Source: an uncultured Ignavibacteria bacterium (GTDB lineage: Bacteria; Bacteroidota; Ignavibacteria; SZUA-365). Taken from it: a stretch of 64,000 nucleotides of DNA. The notes under the pieces are model-generated. The model ran no database searches, had not been told where the DNA came from, and saw only the letters and a program-made list of their open reading frames with translations. The translations under genes were made by a program, and so were the position numbers. Shown here piece after piece: positions 8,067 to 17,569 of this stretch (positions within the stretch are counted from its first letter, which is position 1; each line of letters starts with the position of its first letter). The DNA lies in NCBI GenBank assembly GCA_913061095.1, contig CAJXVM010000005.1:1-64000 (forward strand). The letters are read 5' to 3'.

Positions 8067-8403
8067 CTACAGTACGGCATCAAGCATTTCACTACAACGC
8101 ACGATGCGTAATGCAATTGCGTGGTATTATTATAGAAAGATTTTTGGCCTGTACAAGGCTCGTCACACGAATCTGTGCGTAGAAAGTGCGTCTGAATCGT
8201 TTGTACCCTATTGAAAATGGACGGACTGTCTCCGCTTTTTCAGAGCGACAAAACTGATGATCAATCCGATGCAGTCTTCATGTCCGGGTGGTCTTGATCG
8301 GCCTCAAACCATCAACAGATTCATGTGAGGAGCCACAAAAAAAGGCGCCCGGTCTGCAGCGACCCGGGCGCCCTGGCTCGTATGCCGTTTCCCCCATGGG
8401 CTG
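8067..8403. other. intergenic region with terminator
   Basis: There is no gene in this stretch. Its right end holds a strong minus-strand terminator (8337-8372) for the VIT-VWA operon. The left part is the presumed upstream region of the glycosyltransferase gene; no convincing promoter is visible. Confidence 0.6.
8337..8372 (-). terminator. Rho-independent terminator of the sigma/VWA operon
   Basis: A perfect 9-bp stem (GGCGCCCGG at 8344-8352 with its complement at 8364-8372) encloses an 11-base loop. On the minus strand it is followed by seven T (8343-8337). It lies 30 bases past the stop codon of the VIT-VWA gene. Confidence 0.9.
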
Positions 8404-10503
8404 TCAACGCATGACGCTCATGCGCAGTGTTTTGGTGACGCTGCCGGACTGCAGACGCAGGAAGTATACGCCCGGGGTGACGGCATGGCCATACATGTCC
8501 CTTCCGTCCCACGACACCGAATGTGCGCCGGCGGACCGCATGCCGTCCTCGAGTACGCGGATCACTCGTCCGAGAATGTCGGTGACGACGATGCGCACCG
8601 GACGCGCGCTGCCCAGCGTGTAGGGAATCACGGTGACGGCGGCTGATGAAAGGGAAAAGGGGTTGGGATAGTTTCGTCCGAGCGAAACCTCTTCGGGGAT
8701 GACCTCGGCGACGGCTTCCGCGGATGTCGGGGGATCGATGGGATTGTTTTCCAGCACGAGAAACGCGGTGAAGGGCGTCAGGATGCGGTGCTTGATGCTG
8801 AGCGCGATGATGCTCTCCTTCAGCTCATCGTTTGGCGTGCGTTCATACTGCTCAAGCAGCGAGCCGATGTGCGCCGCCGCCCAGTACGAGGCGATCTGCT
8901 CCATGTCGGTGCGCATGGCGGTGAAATCCACGCTGCGCAGACGCTCGACGGTTTCATTCGCGGCGTTGCGGTAGGTGAGACGCACCGGTTCCGGCGCGGT
9001 GCCGACCAGGCGTCCGGTGGTGACGAGGCGGTCCACGCCGGCATAGGGTGGAAAGCTTTCGGGATACACCAGCCATGTCTGACCGCCTTCGTATGTCACC
9101 ACAGGACTCGAAATCGCTGCGATGTCCAGTTCGAGCATGATGCGGGAGATGACGGTTTCGAGTCCGTCGCCGTTCTCCACCATCGTCACCTTTCCGCCAC
9201 GCGCGTCCGCGATGTCGTAGAGAAGATCGATCCGGTCGCTGTAGACAATGACGGGATAGATGCCGACACCCAGCTCATCGTTATCCTCGATGATGCTGAG
9301 CAATCCTTCCTTTGACGTCTGGCCCGTATTCGGCATGCCGTCGGTGAGGAACAGCATGCGCCGAACGGCCTCGGGTCGGAACTCCGCGGCGAGTCCCGCT
9401 CGGAAGGCCATTCCATAATTCGTCGATCCTCCGGCGGCATAGGCGCGTTGAATGAAATCCACTCCTTCCTCGATGTTCTCCGTGGTGGCGGCGCGCAGCT
9501 CCGCGAGCGCCGGCCAGGCGATCGCGGTATTGCTGAACAGCACGATACGGAAGCGGTCAATGCTGCGCAGCTTCCGGAGAATGGATATCACGGCGTCGCG
9601 GACGGTGCCGATCTGCTCGGTGCCCATGCTGCCGGAGGCGTCGAGCACGAACACGAGATCGCGCGCCTGCGTGCTCGCCGCTTCGGGCTTCTCGGGGTGC
9701 CAGCAGATGAAGTATGACTCTTCGGCGGGATCCTCCGGATCATGCCAGCTCAAGGCCGGGAATACGCTGTATACGCCAGCGGGTTTGTACGCCAGTTCGA
9801 AATCCTGCGAGTAGAACGTATTTTCGTCTCCGAAATCGATGCGGAATTCGTGATCCCCGAATATCGTCTTCCGGCAGAGCAGGGGATTGTCGTCGAAGTT
9901 GGTGGTGATGTCTTCGACGGGGAGTTTGGACTCCACGTTGATGCGCAGCGTGGTGCTTTCGACGGGGGTGGACTGATATCCCTGCAGGTTCAGCGGGTAG
10001 CGGTAGTGCACGGTGCCGTCCTCGGTGAGCGGCAGCGTGTGGAAGTAGCGCATTTCGATGCGGCGCGAGCTGAAGGGACCGATGGGAAAAACCTTCAGCT
10101 GGAAACGGTTCTTGCCGAGGGATTCGAGGATGGCGGGATCGCGTCGCTGTCCGACGACCACGCTGTCGTACAGCCGCTCGGCCTCCTCCTTCTTTTTCAC
10201 CACGAAGATGCGGCGTTCGCCGTTGACCCACAGCCAGAGGCCGTCGACATGGGCGCCCTCGGGCAGCTGGAAGGCGTAAAAGCCCTCGAGCGTGGAGTGA
10301 TTGTCGTTGAAGAATTCCTCGTCCACATGCGTCACGGCCAGCTGTCCAGCGATGGTCACCGTCGTGCGGATGTGACTGATGCGCAGGTTGTAGACAGGGG
10401 ACTCGGTGCCCGGCCGGCGCGCGTACAGCACGCCCGCCGCGGCGCTCTCCGCGGCGCCGGCGAGGATGAGGATAACAAGCAGCAGCTTCCCAAGCGATTT
10501 CAT
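8404..10503 (-). CDS. VIT and von Willebrand A domain protein with T9SS sorting domain
   Basis: A 699-residue exported protein; ATG at 10503 with GGAG about eight bases upstream is preferred over an in-frame start at 10554, because the signal peptide (LLLVILILAGAAESAAAG) begins directly after it. Residues about 25-150 form a VIT domain (VTHVDEEFFNDNHSTLEGFY). Residues about 283-460 form a VWA domain with the metal-ion site DASGSMG (D288, S290, S292). The C-terminal 100 residues are a sorting domain starting GRNYPNPFSLSS with a FlgD-like segment. VIT-VWA proteins are the inter-alpha-trypsin inhibitor heavy-chain architecture. It is the last gene before the terminator, so it should be the distal gene of the sigma-factor operon. 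Confidence 0.9.
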   Translation of the reverse strand: MKSLGKLLLVILILAGAAESAAAGVLYARRPGTESPVYNLRISHIRTTVTIAGQLAVTHVDEEFFNDNHSTLEGFYAFQLPEGAHVDGLWLWVNGERRIFVVKKKEEAERLYDSVVVGQRRDPAILESLGKNRFQLKVFPIGPFSSRRIEMRYFHTLPLTEDGTVHYRYPLNLQGYQSTPVESTTLRINVESKLPVEDITTNFDDNPLLCRKTIFGDHEFRIDFGDENTFYSQDFELAYKPAGVYSVFPALSWHDPEDPAEESYFICWHPEKPEAASTQARDLVFVLDASGSMGTEQIGTVRDAVISILRKLRSIDRFRIVLFSNTAIAWPALAELRAATTENIEEGVDFIQRAYAAGGSTNYGMAFRAGLAAEFRPEAVRRMLFLTDGMPNTGQTSKEGLLSIIEDNDELGVGIYPVIVYSDRIDLLYDIADARGGKVTMVENGDGLETVISRIMLELDIAAISSPVVTYEGGQTWLVYPESFPPYAGVDRLVTTGRLVGTAPEPVRLTYRNAANETVERLRSVDFTAMRTDMEQIASYWAAAHIGSLLEQYERTPNDELKESIIALSIKHRILTPFTAFLVLENNPIDPPTSAEAVAEVIPEEVSLGRNYPNPFSLSSAAVTVIPYTLGSARPVRIVVTDILGRVIRVLEDGMRSAGAHSVSWDGRDMYGHAVTPGVYFLRLQSGSVTKTLRMSVMR

Positions 10504-10599
10504 GGCATTGCTCCGGGATATGAATTGAACGTGTCTTTCGTCGATGGACATCACGTAGACACGCCAATGCCGGGATCGTTCCCCGGGAGTGCAGCAAGT

Positions 10600-11820
10600 T
10601 TATGGAATCACGGTAAGCGTCCCCGTTCTCATCCCCTCCCCGCTGACGAGGCGGTAGAAGTACACGCCCGGACGCAGTCCAGCGGAGGACCATGCCACCA
10701 GGTGGCTGCCCGGCGGAAAACGGCGGTCGAAGACGCGCGCGACTTCGCGGCCGAGGCGGTCGAAAATCTGCAGGCGCAGCGGCAGCTGGCGCGCGGCGTC
10801 GATGTCGAAACGGAAATGCAGCTGGGCGTTGGCGTGCACGGGATTGGGGTAACTCTGTCCGAGCCGGAAGGAAGTGGGCGGAGGGAGTTCTGATGCGGAT
10901 GTGACGTTGGGATTGAACAGCCGCGAGACCCAGACGCTGTCGTCACAGGCCTCGAGACGCATGCTGATATGAAGATTCTGCATGATGACATCGCGCGTGC
11001 GCCGCACGATGCGATGCTCGTCGAACTCCCGCTGCACGAAGCCTGCCAGCTCCGTGTAGCGTTCCGGCAGCGCTTCGGCATCGGCGACGGGGAAGTACAG
11101 TCCGCCGGTCTCCGTGCACAGCTCGCGAAGCGGCTCCTCGAAAATCCCCGATCCCAGTCCGACAATGAACACGCGGATGTCGTCGCGATGTGCCGTCTCG
11201 ATCAGCCATTCGGCGGGATTGCCGCTGGCGTTGTCGTTGCCCGTCGTGAGCGCGAGCACGACTTTCAGCCGGGCGGTGCCGTTGGTTGAGAGCTCGAGCA
11301 TGCCCTGGAAAATGGCGTCGTAGAGTGCGCGCTTGCCGCCGGGCGCCATGCCCTCCAGCGCGTCATGCAGCGCCTGGCGGTCTTCGGTGAGGAAGGAGCG
11401 CAGAGTGGGACGATCGGCGAAGGACGCGATGGCCGCCCGCTGGCAGTCGCGCGCCATGGTGTCGACGTAGGCATGCGCCGCGGTGATGCTGCGGGAAAGC
11501 GCGTCGGCGGAGATGCTCGACGAGTTGTCCATCACCAGCACGAGGTCGTAGCAGGAATTCCGCGCCGGGGATGCGCGGCGATCGATGGTATAGCTGTTCG
11601 TGTCGATGCGGCCCAGGGTTTCCTCGTAGATGAGCTGATGCTTCTGCAGATCGTAGATGACGCTGTCGGCGCAGTACGCCGCGATGTAGAGCTGGTAATA
11701 ATAGTAGTCCGGCGTGTTCGGCTTGAGATGCCGCAGCTCCAGACGCGGCTGCGCGTGCAGCTGCGTGACCGGCGCGGCGCCGGCGAGCAGAAGCAGGATG
11801 AGGATACAGGTTCGTTTCAT
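10600..11820 (-). CDS. von Willebrand A domain protein with T9SS sorting domain
   Basis: A 406-residue protein; ATG at 11820 follows GAGGAG and begins a signal peptide (TCILILLLLAGAAPVTQLHAQ). A VWA domain spans about residues 90-270, with the metal-ion site DNSSSIS (D98, S100, S102) and a later LALTTGNDNASG strand in place of the usual threonine/aspartate loops. The C-terminal part carries the sorting signature GQSYPNPVHANAQLHFRF, followed by GREVARVFDRRFPPGSH and GVYFYRLVSGEG. The protein should be exported to the cell surface by the type IX system. It is 96 bases upstream of the VIT-VWA gene and 20 bases downstream of a lipoprotein gene, all on one strand. Confidence 0.88.
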   Translation of the reverse strand: MKRTCILILLLLAGAAPVTQLHAQPRLELRHLKPNTPDYYYYQLYIAAYCADSVIYDLQKHQLIYEETLGRIDTNSYTIDRRASPARNSCYDLVLVMDNSSSISADALSRSITAAHAYVDTMARDCQRAAIASFADRPTLRSFLTEDRQALHDALEGMAPGGKRALYDAIFQGMLELSTNGTARLKVVLALTTGNDNASGNPAEWLIETAHRDDIRVFIVGLGSGIFEEPLRELCTETGGLYFPVADAEALPERYTELAGFVQREFDEHRIVRRTRDVIMQNLHISMRLEACDDSVWVSRLFNPNVTSASELPPPTSFRLGQSYPNPVHANAQLHFRFDIDAARQLPLRLQIFDRLGREVARVFDRRFPPGSHLVAWSSAGLRPGVYFYRLVSGEGMRTGTLTVIP

Positions 11821-11840
11821 GGCATCAGCTCCTCGCGCTG

Positions 11841-12524
11841 TCATCGCAGCAGCGGAGTTGACACGGGCCAGGGATACGGGATGTCGTAGGATGCGGCATC
11901 CCCGCGCACGTGTATGATGAAGATCGTTGCGAGGTAATCAGGCGAGGACTGAAAGTACTGGCCGGGCGCTCGTTCATAGCGGATAAGCACATTGGAGTTT
12001 GAATACAGGCTTTCAAACGGTTCGCGCGGAATCGTGTTGAGATTGCCCTGCGCGAAGGCGTAGATGCTCTGCTCGTCGGCACCGACGACGTTTTCACCGG
12101 GATCGAAGCGTCCATTGTCATTCCCGTCGCGATAGACGAGGATGACCGCCGCCGCAAGACGGGCGCAGTTGTACTGCCGGAAATACTCCGGCGGGATTTC
12201 CGCGTTGAAGGGAAGCCCCGCCGCCGGGATGTCGAGATAATTCGCCGAGACGGAATAGATGTCGCGGTAGGGCAGCGAGTCGGTATCGGGTGGAATGCAC
12301 ACCATCGCGACGCGCAGGCCGCTTCCGGAGAACCGTTCGATCTTGAATGTCGTCGTGTCCACGATCGCCTCGAAGCGTATGGTCGTGCGGATGCGCGCCG
12401 TGTCATCGCGCCACTCGTCGCGGCAGATATCCTCGCCGATGATGTCGACCGGATTCGCATCGTCCGGCGGCGAACATGCGAAGAGGCACAGCAGTATCGC
12501 CGATGTGAGCAGGAGTGTCCACAC
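11841..12524 (-). CDS. lipoprotein in the sigma/VWA operon
   Basis: A 227-residue protein from a GTG start, with GGAGG 13 bases upstream (a rather long spacing). Residues 1-17 form a lipoprotein signal with lipobox LFAC. The mature protein has alternating beta strands and one calcium-loop-like segment, DGNDNGRFDPGENVVG, of the kind found in bacterial surface proteins. There is no recognised family. The other minus-strand frame across the same DNA (11825-12568) encodes a low-complexity Arg/Ser product and is rejected. It lies 74 bases after the anti-sigma/barrel gene and 20 bases before the VWA gene, so it is probably part of the same surface assembly. Confidence 0.75.
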   Translation of the reverse strand: MWTLLLTSAILLCLFACSPPDDANPVDIIGEDICRDEWRDDTARIRTTIRFEAIVDTTTFKIERFSGSGLRVAMVCIPPDTDSLPYRDIYSVSANYLDIPAAGLPFNAEIPPEYFRQYNCARLAAAVILVYRDGNDNGRFDPGENVVGADEQSIYAFAQGNLNTIPREPFESLYSNSNVLIRYERAPGQYFQSSPDYLATIFIIHVRGDAASYDIPYPWPVSTPLLR

Positions 12525-12598
12525 CGGAATCGGAGGCCTCCCCGGCGGCTGCAGGCGCGGGTCGGCATCCGTGGCGTTGCTATGACATCGCGATGTCG

Positions 12599-14098
12599 TC
12601 AGAAGCGGTAACGCAATCCGTATGAAAGTCCGAGACTGTGACTGGTGAAGAGTTTGTCTTTGTAACGATACGCCAGCAGCGCCCCGTTCGCGCCGAGGAT
12701 GATGCTGACATTGTCGAAGGGAATGAGCTGCACGCCGATGCGGCCGCCGAAGACGGGACCGAGGTCCGAGCCGCCGAGCTGCAGCGTGATTTCCGGAACG
12801 ATGCCCGTCGTGACGGGCAGGGAGTAGCGGTAGAATCCGCCGCCGTACACGAGCGCGGGCTGCTGCTGGAAAAGATACAGCGAATCGCCCTGGATGCGGT
12901 AGTATTCCATGGCGAAGGATTTCTCGCCCGCCATGAGTCCGGCCGTGTGATTCCGGTCGAACATGTACCCGGCGGAGACGGCGAACTGCTGCTGCGCGCG
13001 CTCCGCGCCGACGCGGTTGTAGTCGATGTACGGCCAGGTGTTGAGATGCTCGCGCTGCACCTCGACCACGAAACGTCCGGGCAGCGGAAACTGCAACTCC
13101 TGGCGCGGCGCCTCGCGGATGATCAGCGGACGCTCGTTCGGCACGCGTTGCATGAGCGCGATGGAGACGGTGTCCACCCGCCGCACGATGCGCGTTGTGC
13201 CTGCGCCGCTGTCGGCGTTTACGGTGTGACCGGCGCCAGCGTCACCTGTGGGCGTCCTGCGCACGGCATCCGCGATGCCGGCACCTTCGGTCCTGTCGCT
13301 GAGATACACGGTGTCCACGCGCGTGATGTAGACGTTGCGGTACACGATGCGCTCACCGCCCGCGGTGTGTCCCCCGCCTGTTGCCCGATCACCGGATCCG
13401 TCGTCGCCGGGGTGTCCGGACGGGCCGCCCGTCGCGGAGGGAGTCATTCCCGTCGCATCCGAGCCTCGCGTATTGGGTCCGGTGGCCGATGTTTCGGGGG
13501 GATTGATGTCCGTGCGCCCGCCGCGGGCGCTTGCAGCAGGATCCCCTGCTGCGGGGATGCCGGTCTGTGTTCGTTCGTCTGTCGTCCCGCCCGGGATGCT
13601 GAGGGTTTCCGGGTCTGCGTCCGGGGCACTGCTGTCGTCCAGCAGCGTGGGAAGGAAATATCCCGCCCCGAACAGGGAGAGGCCGAGAATGACGGCGGTG
13701 ATGACGCGCGATGCCGTCCACCACCCCGCTGCCGCTGCAACGCCGCTCGCGGCCGCCGTGCTTCCTGCTGCCGCGCCACCTGTTGCTGCGCCGCCTGCCG
13801 CCGCGCCGCCGCCTGCTGCCGCGCCGCCTGCCGCCGCACCGCCGCCTGCTGCCGCGCCGCCGCCTGCTGCCGCGCCGCCGCCTGCCGCCGCGCCGGCCGC
13901 ACCGAGGACGGCCCGGTCGAGATGGCCGGGAACGGCGGAGCCGCGCGCGTCGGCCGTGATGGCGGAGCGCACGCCCATGTAGGAATGGAAAAGGGCGCGC
14001 TTCTCCGGCGAGACGGAGAGGATGTGCAGGAATTCTGTCTCCTGCTCGGCGCTCAGCGCGCCGTCCATGAACGCGGATATCTGTTCTTCGAAATTCAT
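12599..14098 (-). CDS. anti-sigma factor fused to an outer-membrane-type beta-barrel domain
   Basis: A 499-residue protein, four bases after the ECF sigma gene. Residues 1-55 resemble an anti-sigma N-terminus (EEQISAFMDGALSAEQETEF...SVSPEKRALFHSYMGVRSAI), without a zinc Cys/His set. Residues about 65-125 are an Ala/Gly repeat (AAAGGG units). Residues about 126-153 form one membrane helix (WWTASRVITAVILGLSLFGA). A Pro/Gly/Thr-rich linker runs to about 330. The last 165 residues show alternating strands and end SLGLSYGLRYRF, with the terminal Phe typical of outer-membrane barrels. One polypeptide may thus link cytoplasm and outer membrane. Anti-sigma/barrel fusions beside ECF factors are known in FCB bacteria; this one's signal is unknown. 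Confidence 0.78.
   Translation of the reverse strand: MNFEEQISAFMDGALSAEQETEFLHILSVSPEKRALFHSYMGVRSAITADARGSAVPGHLDRAVLGAAGAAAGGGAAAGGGAAAGGGAAAGGAAAGGGAAAGGAATGGAAAGSTAAASGVAAAAGWWTASRVITAVILGLSLFGAGYFLPTLLDDSSAPDADPETLSIPGGTTDERTQTGIPAAGDPAASARGGRTDINPPETSATGPNTRGSDATGMTPSATGGPSGHPGDDGSGDRATGGGHTAGGERIVYRNVYITRVDTVYLSDRTEGAGIADAVRRTPTGDAGAGHTVNADSGAGTTRIVRRVDTVSIALMQRVPNERPLIIREAPRQELQFPLPGRFVVEVQREHLNTWPYIDYNRVGAERAQQQFAVSAGYMFDRNHTAGLMAGEKSFAMEYYRIQGDSLYLFQQQPALVYGGGFYRYSLPVTTGIVPEITLQLGGSDLGPVFGGRIGVQLIPFDNVSIILGANGALLAYRYKDKLFTSHSLGLSYGLRYRF
13724..13906 (-). repeat. low-complexity Ala/Gly codon repeat inside the anti-sigma gene
   Basis: A 183-base stretch built from GCC/GCG/GGC codons encodes (AAAGGG)-like units with variable Ala and Gly counts. 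It lies between the cytoplasmic anti-sigma segment and the membrane helix. Such a tract is prone to length change and its length probably varies between strains. Confidence 0.8.
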
Positions 14099-14102
14099 TG
14101 CC

Positions 14103-14654
14103 TTATGTCCGTGCTGAACCGGTGGTGAACCAATCGCGCAGCTTACGGCGTGCCCGGAAAATGCGCTTGCGAACAGTACTGAGCGGAACGTCGGTCAGTT
14201 CCGCGATTTCCTCATAGCTGTAGCCTTCATATTCGCAGAGCAGCAGCGCCTCGCGGTTGTCCGCGGGAAGGCGGTTTAGCGCGCGCTGCAGGTCGTCGAT
14301 TTCGCCGGCGTCGGGAGCGTCCTCGCCCGGCAGGAAGTCCTGCATGTCATCGACATCCGCGGGGTATTTGCGGTTGCGGATGCTGTTGAGGCAGCGGTTC
14401 CGCGCCGAGCGCACCAGGTAGGCCTCCACGTTTTCTATTTCCATCCCGCCCCGGATTTTTTCGAGCACGTTGAGGAAGACCTCCTGGAAGATATCCTCCG
14501 CTGCGGGACGTTCGCCGAGGAAGCGGGTACAGTACAGGTAGACTGCCTGCTTGTGCCGGCCGTAGAGATCCGCGAACGCAGCGTTGTCGCCCTCCCGGAT
14601 CCGCCGCTGCAACTCCAGATCCTGCGAGACGCTCTGACTCACTTCCTTGATCAC
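14103..14654 (-). CDS. ECF-family RNA polymerase sigma factor
   Basis: With the GTG start at 14654 (AGGA five bases upstream) the product has 183 residues, the usual length for this family. A GTG at 14732 in the same frame would add 26 unlikely residues. Region 2 is clear (DNAAFADLYGRHKQAVYLYCTRFL, then AAEDIFQEVFLNVLEKI). Region 4 has the helix-turn-helix EYEGYSYEEIAELTDVPLSTVRKRIFRARRKL. Such factors direct RNA polymerase to a small regulon and are usually held by a co-transcribed anti-sigma factor. Here the next gene, four bases away, fits that role. The sigma factor probably drives its own operon, which continues through two VWA surface proteins. Confidence 0.92.
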   Translation of the reverse strand: MIKEVSQSVSQDLELQRRIREGDNAAFADLYGRHKQAVYLYCTRFLGERPAAEDIFQEVFLNVLEKIRGGMEIENVEAYLVRSARNRCLNSIRNRKYPADVDDMQDFLPGEDAPDAGEIDDLQRALNRLPADNREALLLCEYEGYSYEEIAELTDVPLSTVRKRIFRARRKLRDWFTTGSART

Positions 14655-14844: not shown

Positions 14845-14900
14845 AACGGAGAGCGCAAATTGCACTTGCCACATTCTACGGCTCTGCCGTATATTTGTGC

Positions 14901-15209
14901 ATGGTTTTCATCGAGACGACCGCATTTTCGAAGCACCTCCATTCATATCTGTCCGAAGAGGAGTTTCAAGGACTTCAATCGTTGCTCATGCAATTTCCGG
15001 AAACCGGTAGAGTCGTTCCTCGATCCGGCGGCGTTCGTAAACTCAGATGGAATGTTTCAGGAAAAGGAAAACGTGGTGGTGTCCGAGTAATTTATTACTA
15101 CAAGGGCAAGGATGACGAAATCTGGCTTTTGTCGATTTACAGCAAGAGCGAAGCGATTACGATTCCAGCACATGTATTGAAACAGATTGCGAAGGAGATA
15201 GAAAAATGA
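14901..15209 (+). CDS. higB: RelE/HigB-type mRNA interferase toxin
   Basis: A 102-residue protein (start MVFIETTAF at 14901; an ATG two codons upstream is possible). The fold pattern is that of the RelE superfamily of the HigB/YoeB-like type: two helices (AFSKHLHSYLSEEEFQGLQSLL) and then strands GRVVPRSGGVRKLRWN, GVRVIYYYKG and EIWLLSIYSKSEA, with a final helix HVLKQIAKEIEK. The family cleaves mRNA at the ribosome. The toxin comes first and its stop overlaps the antitoxin start by four bases (ATGA), the usual HigBA order. A REP-like palindrome lies just upstream. Family assignment is firm, the symbol less so. Confidence 0.85.
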   Translation: MVFIETTAFSKHLHSYLSEEEFQGLQSLLMQFPETGRVVPRSGGVRKLRWNVSGKGKRGGVRVIYYYKGKDDEIWLLSIYSKSEAITIPAHVLKQIAKEIEK

Positions 15210-15493
15210 CTGAACGTGATATTGGCCGGGAGATTCTTGAAGGAATCCGTGAGATCAAAGAGCATAAGGCCGGAAGGAAGCAGCTTCGTGTGCATGAACT
15301 GAAAGCGCCGTCCACAGTGAAGGAAATCCGTTCGAAGCTCAAACTTTCGCAAAGCGCGTTTGCCGGATTGATGGGTGTCAGCCTGCGGACTGTTCAGGAC
15401 TGGGAGCAGGGAAGGCGGAAACCCAGCGGCCCCGCGCTGGCATTGTTACGCATCGCCGAACAACAGCCCGAGGTGTTTGCCCGGCTGTCGTAA
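15206..15493 (+). CDS. higA: HigA-type helix-turn-helix antitoxin
   Basis: A 95-residue Xre-type regulator. Its helix-turn-helix is at about residues 42-70 (IRSKLKLSQSAFAGLMGVSLRTVQDWEQGRRKP), followed by ALALLRIAEQQPEVF, a combination frequent in antitoxins of RelE/HigB-type toxins. It should neutralise the upstream toxin and repress the shared promoter. The N-terminal 40 residues are basic and helical and probably contact the toxin. The start codon ATG overlaps the toxin stop. Confidence 0.88.
   Translation: MTERDIGREILEGIREIKEHKAGRKQLRVHELKAPSTVKEIRSKLKLSQSAFAGLMGVSLRTVQDWEQGRRKPSGPALALLRIAEQQPEVFARLS

Positions 15494-15580: not shown

Positions 15581-17569
<1,989 letters not shown>

Follow-up and report, generated by a model that had tools for sequence, protein, structure and literature searches.

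Anti-sigma factors of the Dma type, in which an anti-sigma domain, a transmembrane helix, a disordered tether, and a C-terminal barrel are joined in one protein, were described only recently, in Bacteroides (PMC13088901), and little is known of their signals or direct targets. In the Dma/Das systems of Bacteroides thetaiotaomicron, the anti-sigma gene lies next to an ECF gene and the pair's own operon is among the targets; the genes induced most strongly on deletion of dma2 include the dma2 operon (PMC13088901). A comparable pair, M0N98_03760-61 of Phocaeicola vulgatus, includes an anti-sigma factor predicted to span the periplasm and to end in an outer-membrane barrel; this pair is induced by envelope damage, its regulon involves O-antigen length and NigD-like proteins, and EcfO of B. 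fragilis is cited as similar to it (PMC9308784). Taken together, these Bacteroidia pairs answer envelope damage, with vesicles or surface glycans under their control (PMC13088901; PMC9308784). A further ECF circuit, PorXY-SigP with PorA in Porphyromonas gingivalis, is tied to the T9SS: SigP acts via a two-component system and controls the T9SS machinery, and in the PorA pathway a surface protein with a T9SS tail feeds the ECF signal (PMC7712824).

The locus considered here lies in a 64,000-nucleotide stretch of DNA from an uncultured Ignavibacteria bacterium (positions 1 to 64,000 of contig CAJXVM010000005.1; “the window”) and is probably a Dma-type envelope-signalling system, whose ECF sigma factor would read a promoter motif at its own operon, at a VIT-VWA gene, and at other genes for T9SS cargo. 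The layout of its anti-sigma/barrel protein is already known, matching that of the Bacteroides Dma factors (PMC13088901) and that of the Phocaeicola vulgatus pair (PMC9308784). With the Dma/Das systems it also shares the adjacent ECF gene and the predicted inclusion of its own operon among the targets, the likeness being one of domain layout. Unlike those systems, its class-level relatives fall outside the Bacteroidia, a lipoprotein gene and VWA and VIT-VWA genes are conserved beside the pair, and the predicted targets are exported by the T9SS; the accessible part of PMC9308784 does not report such a VWA/T9SS set for M0N98_03760-61. As in PorXY-SigP, an ECF sigma factor appears tied to the T9SS, but here through a Dma-type anti-sigma factor and a predicted control of cargo. 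The initial annotation knew of no earlier account of the exact gene set. A search of open-licence papers found neither the set nor the regulon described; as far as searched, the novelty lies in the VWA partners and the predicted T9SS-cargo regulon. Comparative genomics in this way supplies a promoter motif and a set of conserved partners for a Dma-type system, predicts its regulon, links it to T9SS-exported surface proteins, and provides testable targets for an envelope sensor.

The five genes lie on the minus strand, separated by gaps of 4, 74, 20, and 96 bases with the starts listed here, as originally annotated. The strong terminator said to close the set is likewise present, as an intrinsic terminator (8337-8372, minus strand), with a GC-rich stem at 8344-8372 followed by seven U and supported by folding. 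The first gene (14103-14654; about 183 aa, GTG start) is confirmed as an ECF sigma factor by Pfam (Sigma70_r4_2, 2.5e-21; Sigma70_r2, 2.1e-12), and its best NCBIfam matches, TIGR02985 and NF058625, are Bacteroidota-type families, both under cut-off. The GTG start is supported because conservation begins there and because the predicted promoter P1, discussed below, falls inside the longer open reading frame. Upstream of that promoter, a RelE-like gene followed by an XRE-type HTH gene (14895-15493, plus strand), probably a toxin-antitoxin pair, sits between it and an ABC-F ATPase gene (15581-17569); in the upstream DNA of relative G001, an ABC-F-like reading frame seems to reach almost to the ECF gene.

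The second gene (12599-14098, minus strand) encodes the Dma-like anti-sigma/barrel protein, and the cytoplasmic, membrane, and barrel-like parts predicted for it at the outset are recovered in alignments of nine orthologues and of 29 family members. In the orthologue alignment an N-terminal domain (residues ~1-60) is followed by a Gly/Ala-rich linker (~62-125), a membrane helix (~131-150), a disordered tether (~151-340), and a C-terminal part resembling a barrel (~345-499), whose last residues are RYRF. RseA_N is the sole anti-sigma domain match, at 20.6 bits and so under the Pfam cut-off of 24; across the 29 family members, Pfam at E<=0.1 finds zf-HC2 in nine, RseA_N in five, and OMP_b-brl in two. 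The hydrophobic stretch at 131-150 is conserved in orthologues, and relatives show a hydropathy peak near residue 100. In an AF2 model built from nine sequences the N-terminus is helical (pLDDT ~80), and outside residues 1-43 the model is poor (mean pLDDT 37). The Gly/Ala-rich repeat between the anti-sigma domain and the membrane helix, expected to be cytoplasmic, varies in length among orthologues.

Because of this poor model, assignment of the C-terminal part as a barrel rests on the sequence pattern and on the weak OMP_b-brl matches in two of 29 members. An improbable alternative is that this part is a periplasmic sensor domain, making the protein a one-membrane anti-sigma factor, as might be suggested by the lack of confidence in the barrel model and by a PDB sequence search with the barrel profile that gave no match. 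However, the C-terminal domain is conserved, its last residue is aromatic, and a strand-like alternating pattern recurs in 25 relatives; these features, the two OMP_b-brl matches, and a tether that resembles that of Dma (some 190 disordered residues, of low complexity, little conserved, and low in pLDDT) point instead to an outer-membrane barrel. The Dma layout is common within the class, being found in about 36 ECF-linked proteins; of the 40 ECF loci fetched from it, nearly all encode a protein of this layout behind the ECF gene. In a sample of 296 genomes of the phylum, the barrel profile found members in the same class only and none outside.

The third gene (11841-12524, minus strand) encodes a lipoprotein of unassigned family. 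The lipoprotein call is upheld by Cys17, which is invariant across ten orthologues and is followed by (S/A)PP; about 63 residues in all are invariant. When 60 relatives were searched, the protein was present in ten genomes from three genera, the window's own included, with none outside the window's family at E<=1e-3. Pfam, NCBIfam, and PDB sequence searches gave no match, and Foldseek, run with a poor AF2 model from ten sequences, returned nothing at E<=0.001.

The remaining two genes, VWA1 (10600 to 11820 or 11844) and VIT-VWA (8404-10503), both on the minus strand, were described as encoding VWA proteins with T9SS sorting domains, one of them with a VIT domain, and Pfam and NCBIfam confirm this description. 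The VWA domain matches at 5e-13 in VWA1 and 6e-14 in VIT-VWA, the VIT domain of the latter at 6e-18, and the type A sorting domain TIGR04183 at 29.6 and 24.8 bits in the two proteins, against a cut-off of 23. Both proteins have signal-like N-termini, as judged by eye, and the genome encodes SprA and PorU. The metal-ion ligand site attributed to the VWA domains is borne out in one protein and not in the other: the MIDAS of VIT-VWA is intact (DxSxS, T, D), whereas VWA1 and its aligned orthologues retain DxSxS but have K/R in place of T and T in place of D. Since the MIDAS of VWA1 is degenerate, metal-site ligand binding would be plausible for VIT-VWA only.

Conservation of gene order among relatives, fixed in the initial annotation as a test of the gene set, was assessed by searching 60 relatives for orthologues of the locus proteins and mapping these onto the fetched loci. 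All five genes prove to be conserved in order, which contradicts the refuting outcome named there, an order shared by relatives at sigma and anti-sigma alone. Orthologous loci, some in MAGs called Ignavibacteria or Bacteroidetes bacterium, include seven with the ECF gene on the contig and two more (G003 and G004) that start after it because the contig ends there. The order ECF, anti-sigma/barrel, lipoprotein, VWA1 holds in relatives that span three genera of the family, with identities of 45-70% across genera, and continues into VIT-VWA in G001, G002, G006, and G009; the loci of G010 and G011 stop within or after VWA1. VIT-VWA is thus in place in six relatives and displaced in a seventh, G008, where the first four genes stand together and VIT-VWA lies about 10 kb away. 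With orthologous loci of this kind, neither the genes nor their order can be put down to chance, and on these comparisons the locus is a real, conserved system. In G006 (L045), a frameshift or an assembly error divides VIT-VWA between two reading frames.

A further conserved feature is a motif, (G/A)GGAAY-N15-GTGTC, with one copy ahead of the ECF gene and another within the 96 bases that separate VWA1 from VIT-VWA. In the window both copies, the predicted ECF-type promoters P1 (14702-14727, minus strand, 72 bases 5' of the ECF start) and P2 (10558-10583, minus strand), read GGGAAC-N15-GTGTC. When the DNA upstream of the ECF gene was aligned for eight orthologous loci, the motif was found in all eight amid variable intervening sequence, with a spacer of exactly 15 bases in seven and of 16 in G010; in 2000 shuffles, never more than two of eight loci carried it. 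The -35 element varies to AGGAAT in G008 and GGGAAG in G010, the latter a genome with few sites, whose ECF protein has 51% identity. Seven in-place VIT-VWA genes are preceded by the motif (in the window and G001-G004, and as AGGAAC in G006 and G009), as is the displaced copy in G008. No such motif was found before the lipoprotein gene or VWA1 at the locus; a scan for sigma-70 promoters is uninformative for promoters of the ECF type.

These sites make control of the locus and of VIT-VWA by its ECF sigma factor, as first proposed, the most likely arrangement, given a conserved ECF-type promoter before both. The idea of one operon is too simple, since VIT-VWA has a promoter-like site of its own of the same type: what stands is the common sigma-type promoter, and what does not is the single unit, VIT-VWA having its own site and standing apart in G008. 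The gene set is therefore predicted to form at least two transcription units under one control.

Comparison with paralogues suggests that such associations are not confined to this locus. The first search turned up two more ECF-Dma pairs in the window's genome. One, on contig 14, is followed by a VWA lipoprotein gene and a gene for a VWA protein with a sorting domain, with relatives in six genomes, so that VWA genes recur behind ECF-Dma pairs; behind the other, on contig 1, a gene for a lipoprotein without VWA comes next. In paralogous ECF-Dma operons (L088, L089, L096, and L098), the third genes encode lipoproteins that have in common the mature start C-x-SP-(L/I)-x-x-(D/E)TPR. It is very improbable that the locus is only an ordinary autoregulated ECF pair with VWA genes linked by chance or by general housekeeping. 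Although VWA domains (30 matches) and T9SS tails (at least 150) are frequent enough in this genome to make chance neighbours conceivable, the order persists across genera at the identities given above, the contig 14 operon also has two VWA genes, and the displaced VIT-VWA of G008 retains its promoter. This explanation was rejected as largely refuted by conservation.

Beyond the locus, sites were sought with a refined, strict pattern, consisting of the motif and one more conserved position, T17, with the reversed pattern as control. In the ten genomes with the system it gives 70 sites against 2 for the control; for 51 genomes that lack the system, the corresponding figures are 19 and 15. The window's genome has six strict sites, every one of them ahead of this operon or of a T9SS-tail gene, the downstream genes being this ECF, this VIT-VWA, a second VIT-VWA, and those for a 1403-residue VWA protein, a 328-residue protein with a concanavalin-like domain, and an FG-GAP protein; all but the ECF encode sorting domains. 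Among the 86 genes that follow sites of the unrefined pattern, 41 carry a T9SS sorting domain, compared with 252 of 4000 for random positions treated alike, an enrichment that is not circular. With strict sites the proportion is 35 of 59 (Fisher p 3e-26 against the same 252 of 4000), which is partly circular since T17 was picked on tail-bearing sites; VWA domains are found in 8 of 59 versus 67 of 4000 (p 1e-5). Sites counted in this way are not fully independent, as a sequence common to orthologues enters the count once for each genome. For about half of the motif sites, no T9SS tail was detected in the gene that follows. For grouping of the target genes, sorting domains were cut off, since the shared domain otherwise joins genes under single linkage. 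The predicted targets thus extend past the locus and include other genes with T9SS tails.

That another sigma factor reads the motif, with this ECF gene merely one target and the locus a downstream branch, is unlikely. Room for such a factor exists in the 17 sigma70-region-2 matches of the genome, of which promoters were examined for the three ECF-Dma pairs only. Yet the motif precedes the ECF gene in all orthologous loci and is unenriched in genomes without the system, and the two examined paralogues use other -35 elements: in the paralogous ECF groups TGTAAC and TGMAAC replace GGGAAY, at unchanged distance to GTGTY, as expected if each ECF reads its own promoter. The different -35 elements may thus keep the paralogous ECF-Dma pairs apart.

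In the favored scheme, of Dma-type signalling through the locus ECF, the cytoplasmic N-terminal domain of the anti-sigma factor would hold the sigma factor, while the protein would cross the inner membrane and extend by its long tether to the outer membrane, where the C-terminal barrel would lie. Some change at that membrane would free the sigma factor, which would contact and transcribe from GGGAAY-N15-GTGTC promoters: from P1 the operon of sigma, anti-sigma, lipoprotein, and VWA1, from its own promoter the adjacent VIT-VWA, and elsewhere other genes, many coding for proteins presumably exported by the T9SS. The lipoprotein and VWA proteins might be outputs of this circuit and possibly also parts of the sensor. 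Sensing by the barrel and a physical VWA-based surface complex, both put forward in the initial annotation, are inferred. It is possible, though doubtful, that the tethered barrel watches the deployment of T9SS surface proteins, perhaps via the lipoprotein and VWA1, and adjusts the production of VIT/VWA proteins and other T9SS cargo.

In G005, which lacks the system, none of four VIT genes has a motif site, whereas the genomes with the system contain 20 VIT genes, of which 13 carry a site immediately upstream and four more have one before the preceding gene. The gene for the 328-residue T9SS-tail protein (L193:3479-4462 and orthologues) has a site in nine genomes; in several of these a VWA gene is a neighbour, and the site faces away from it.
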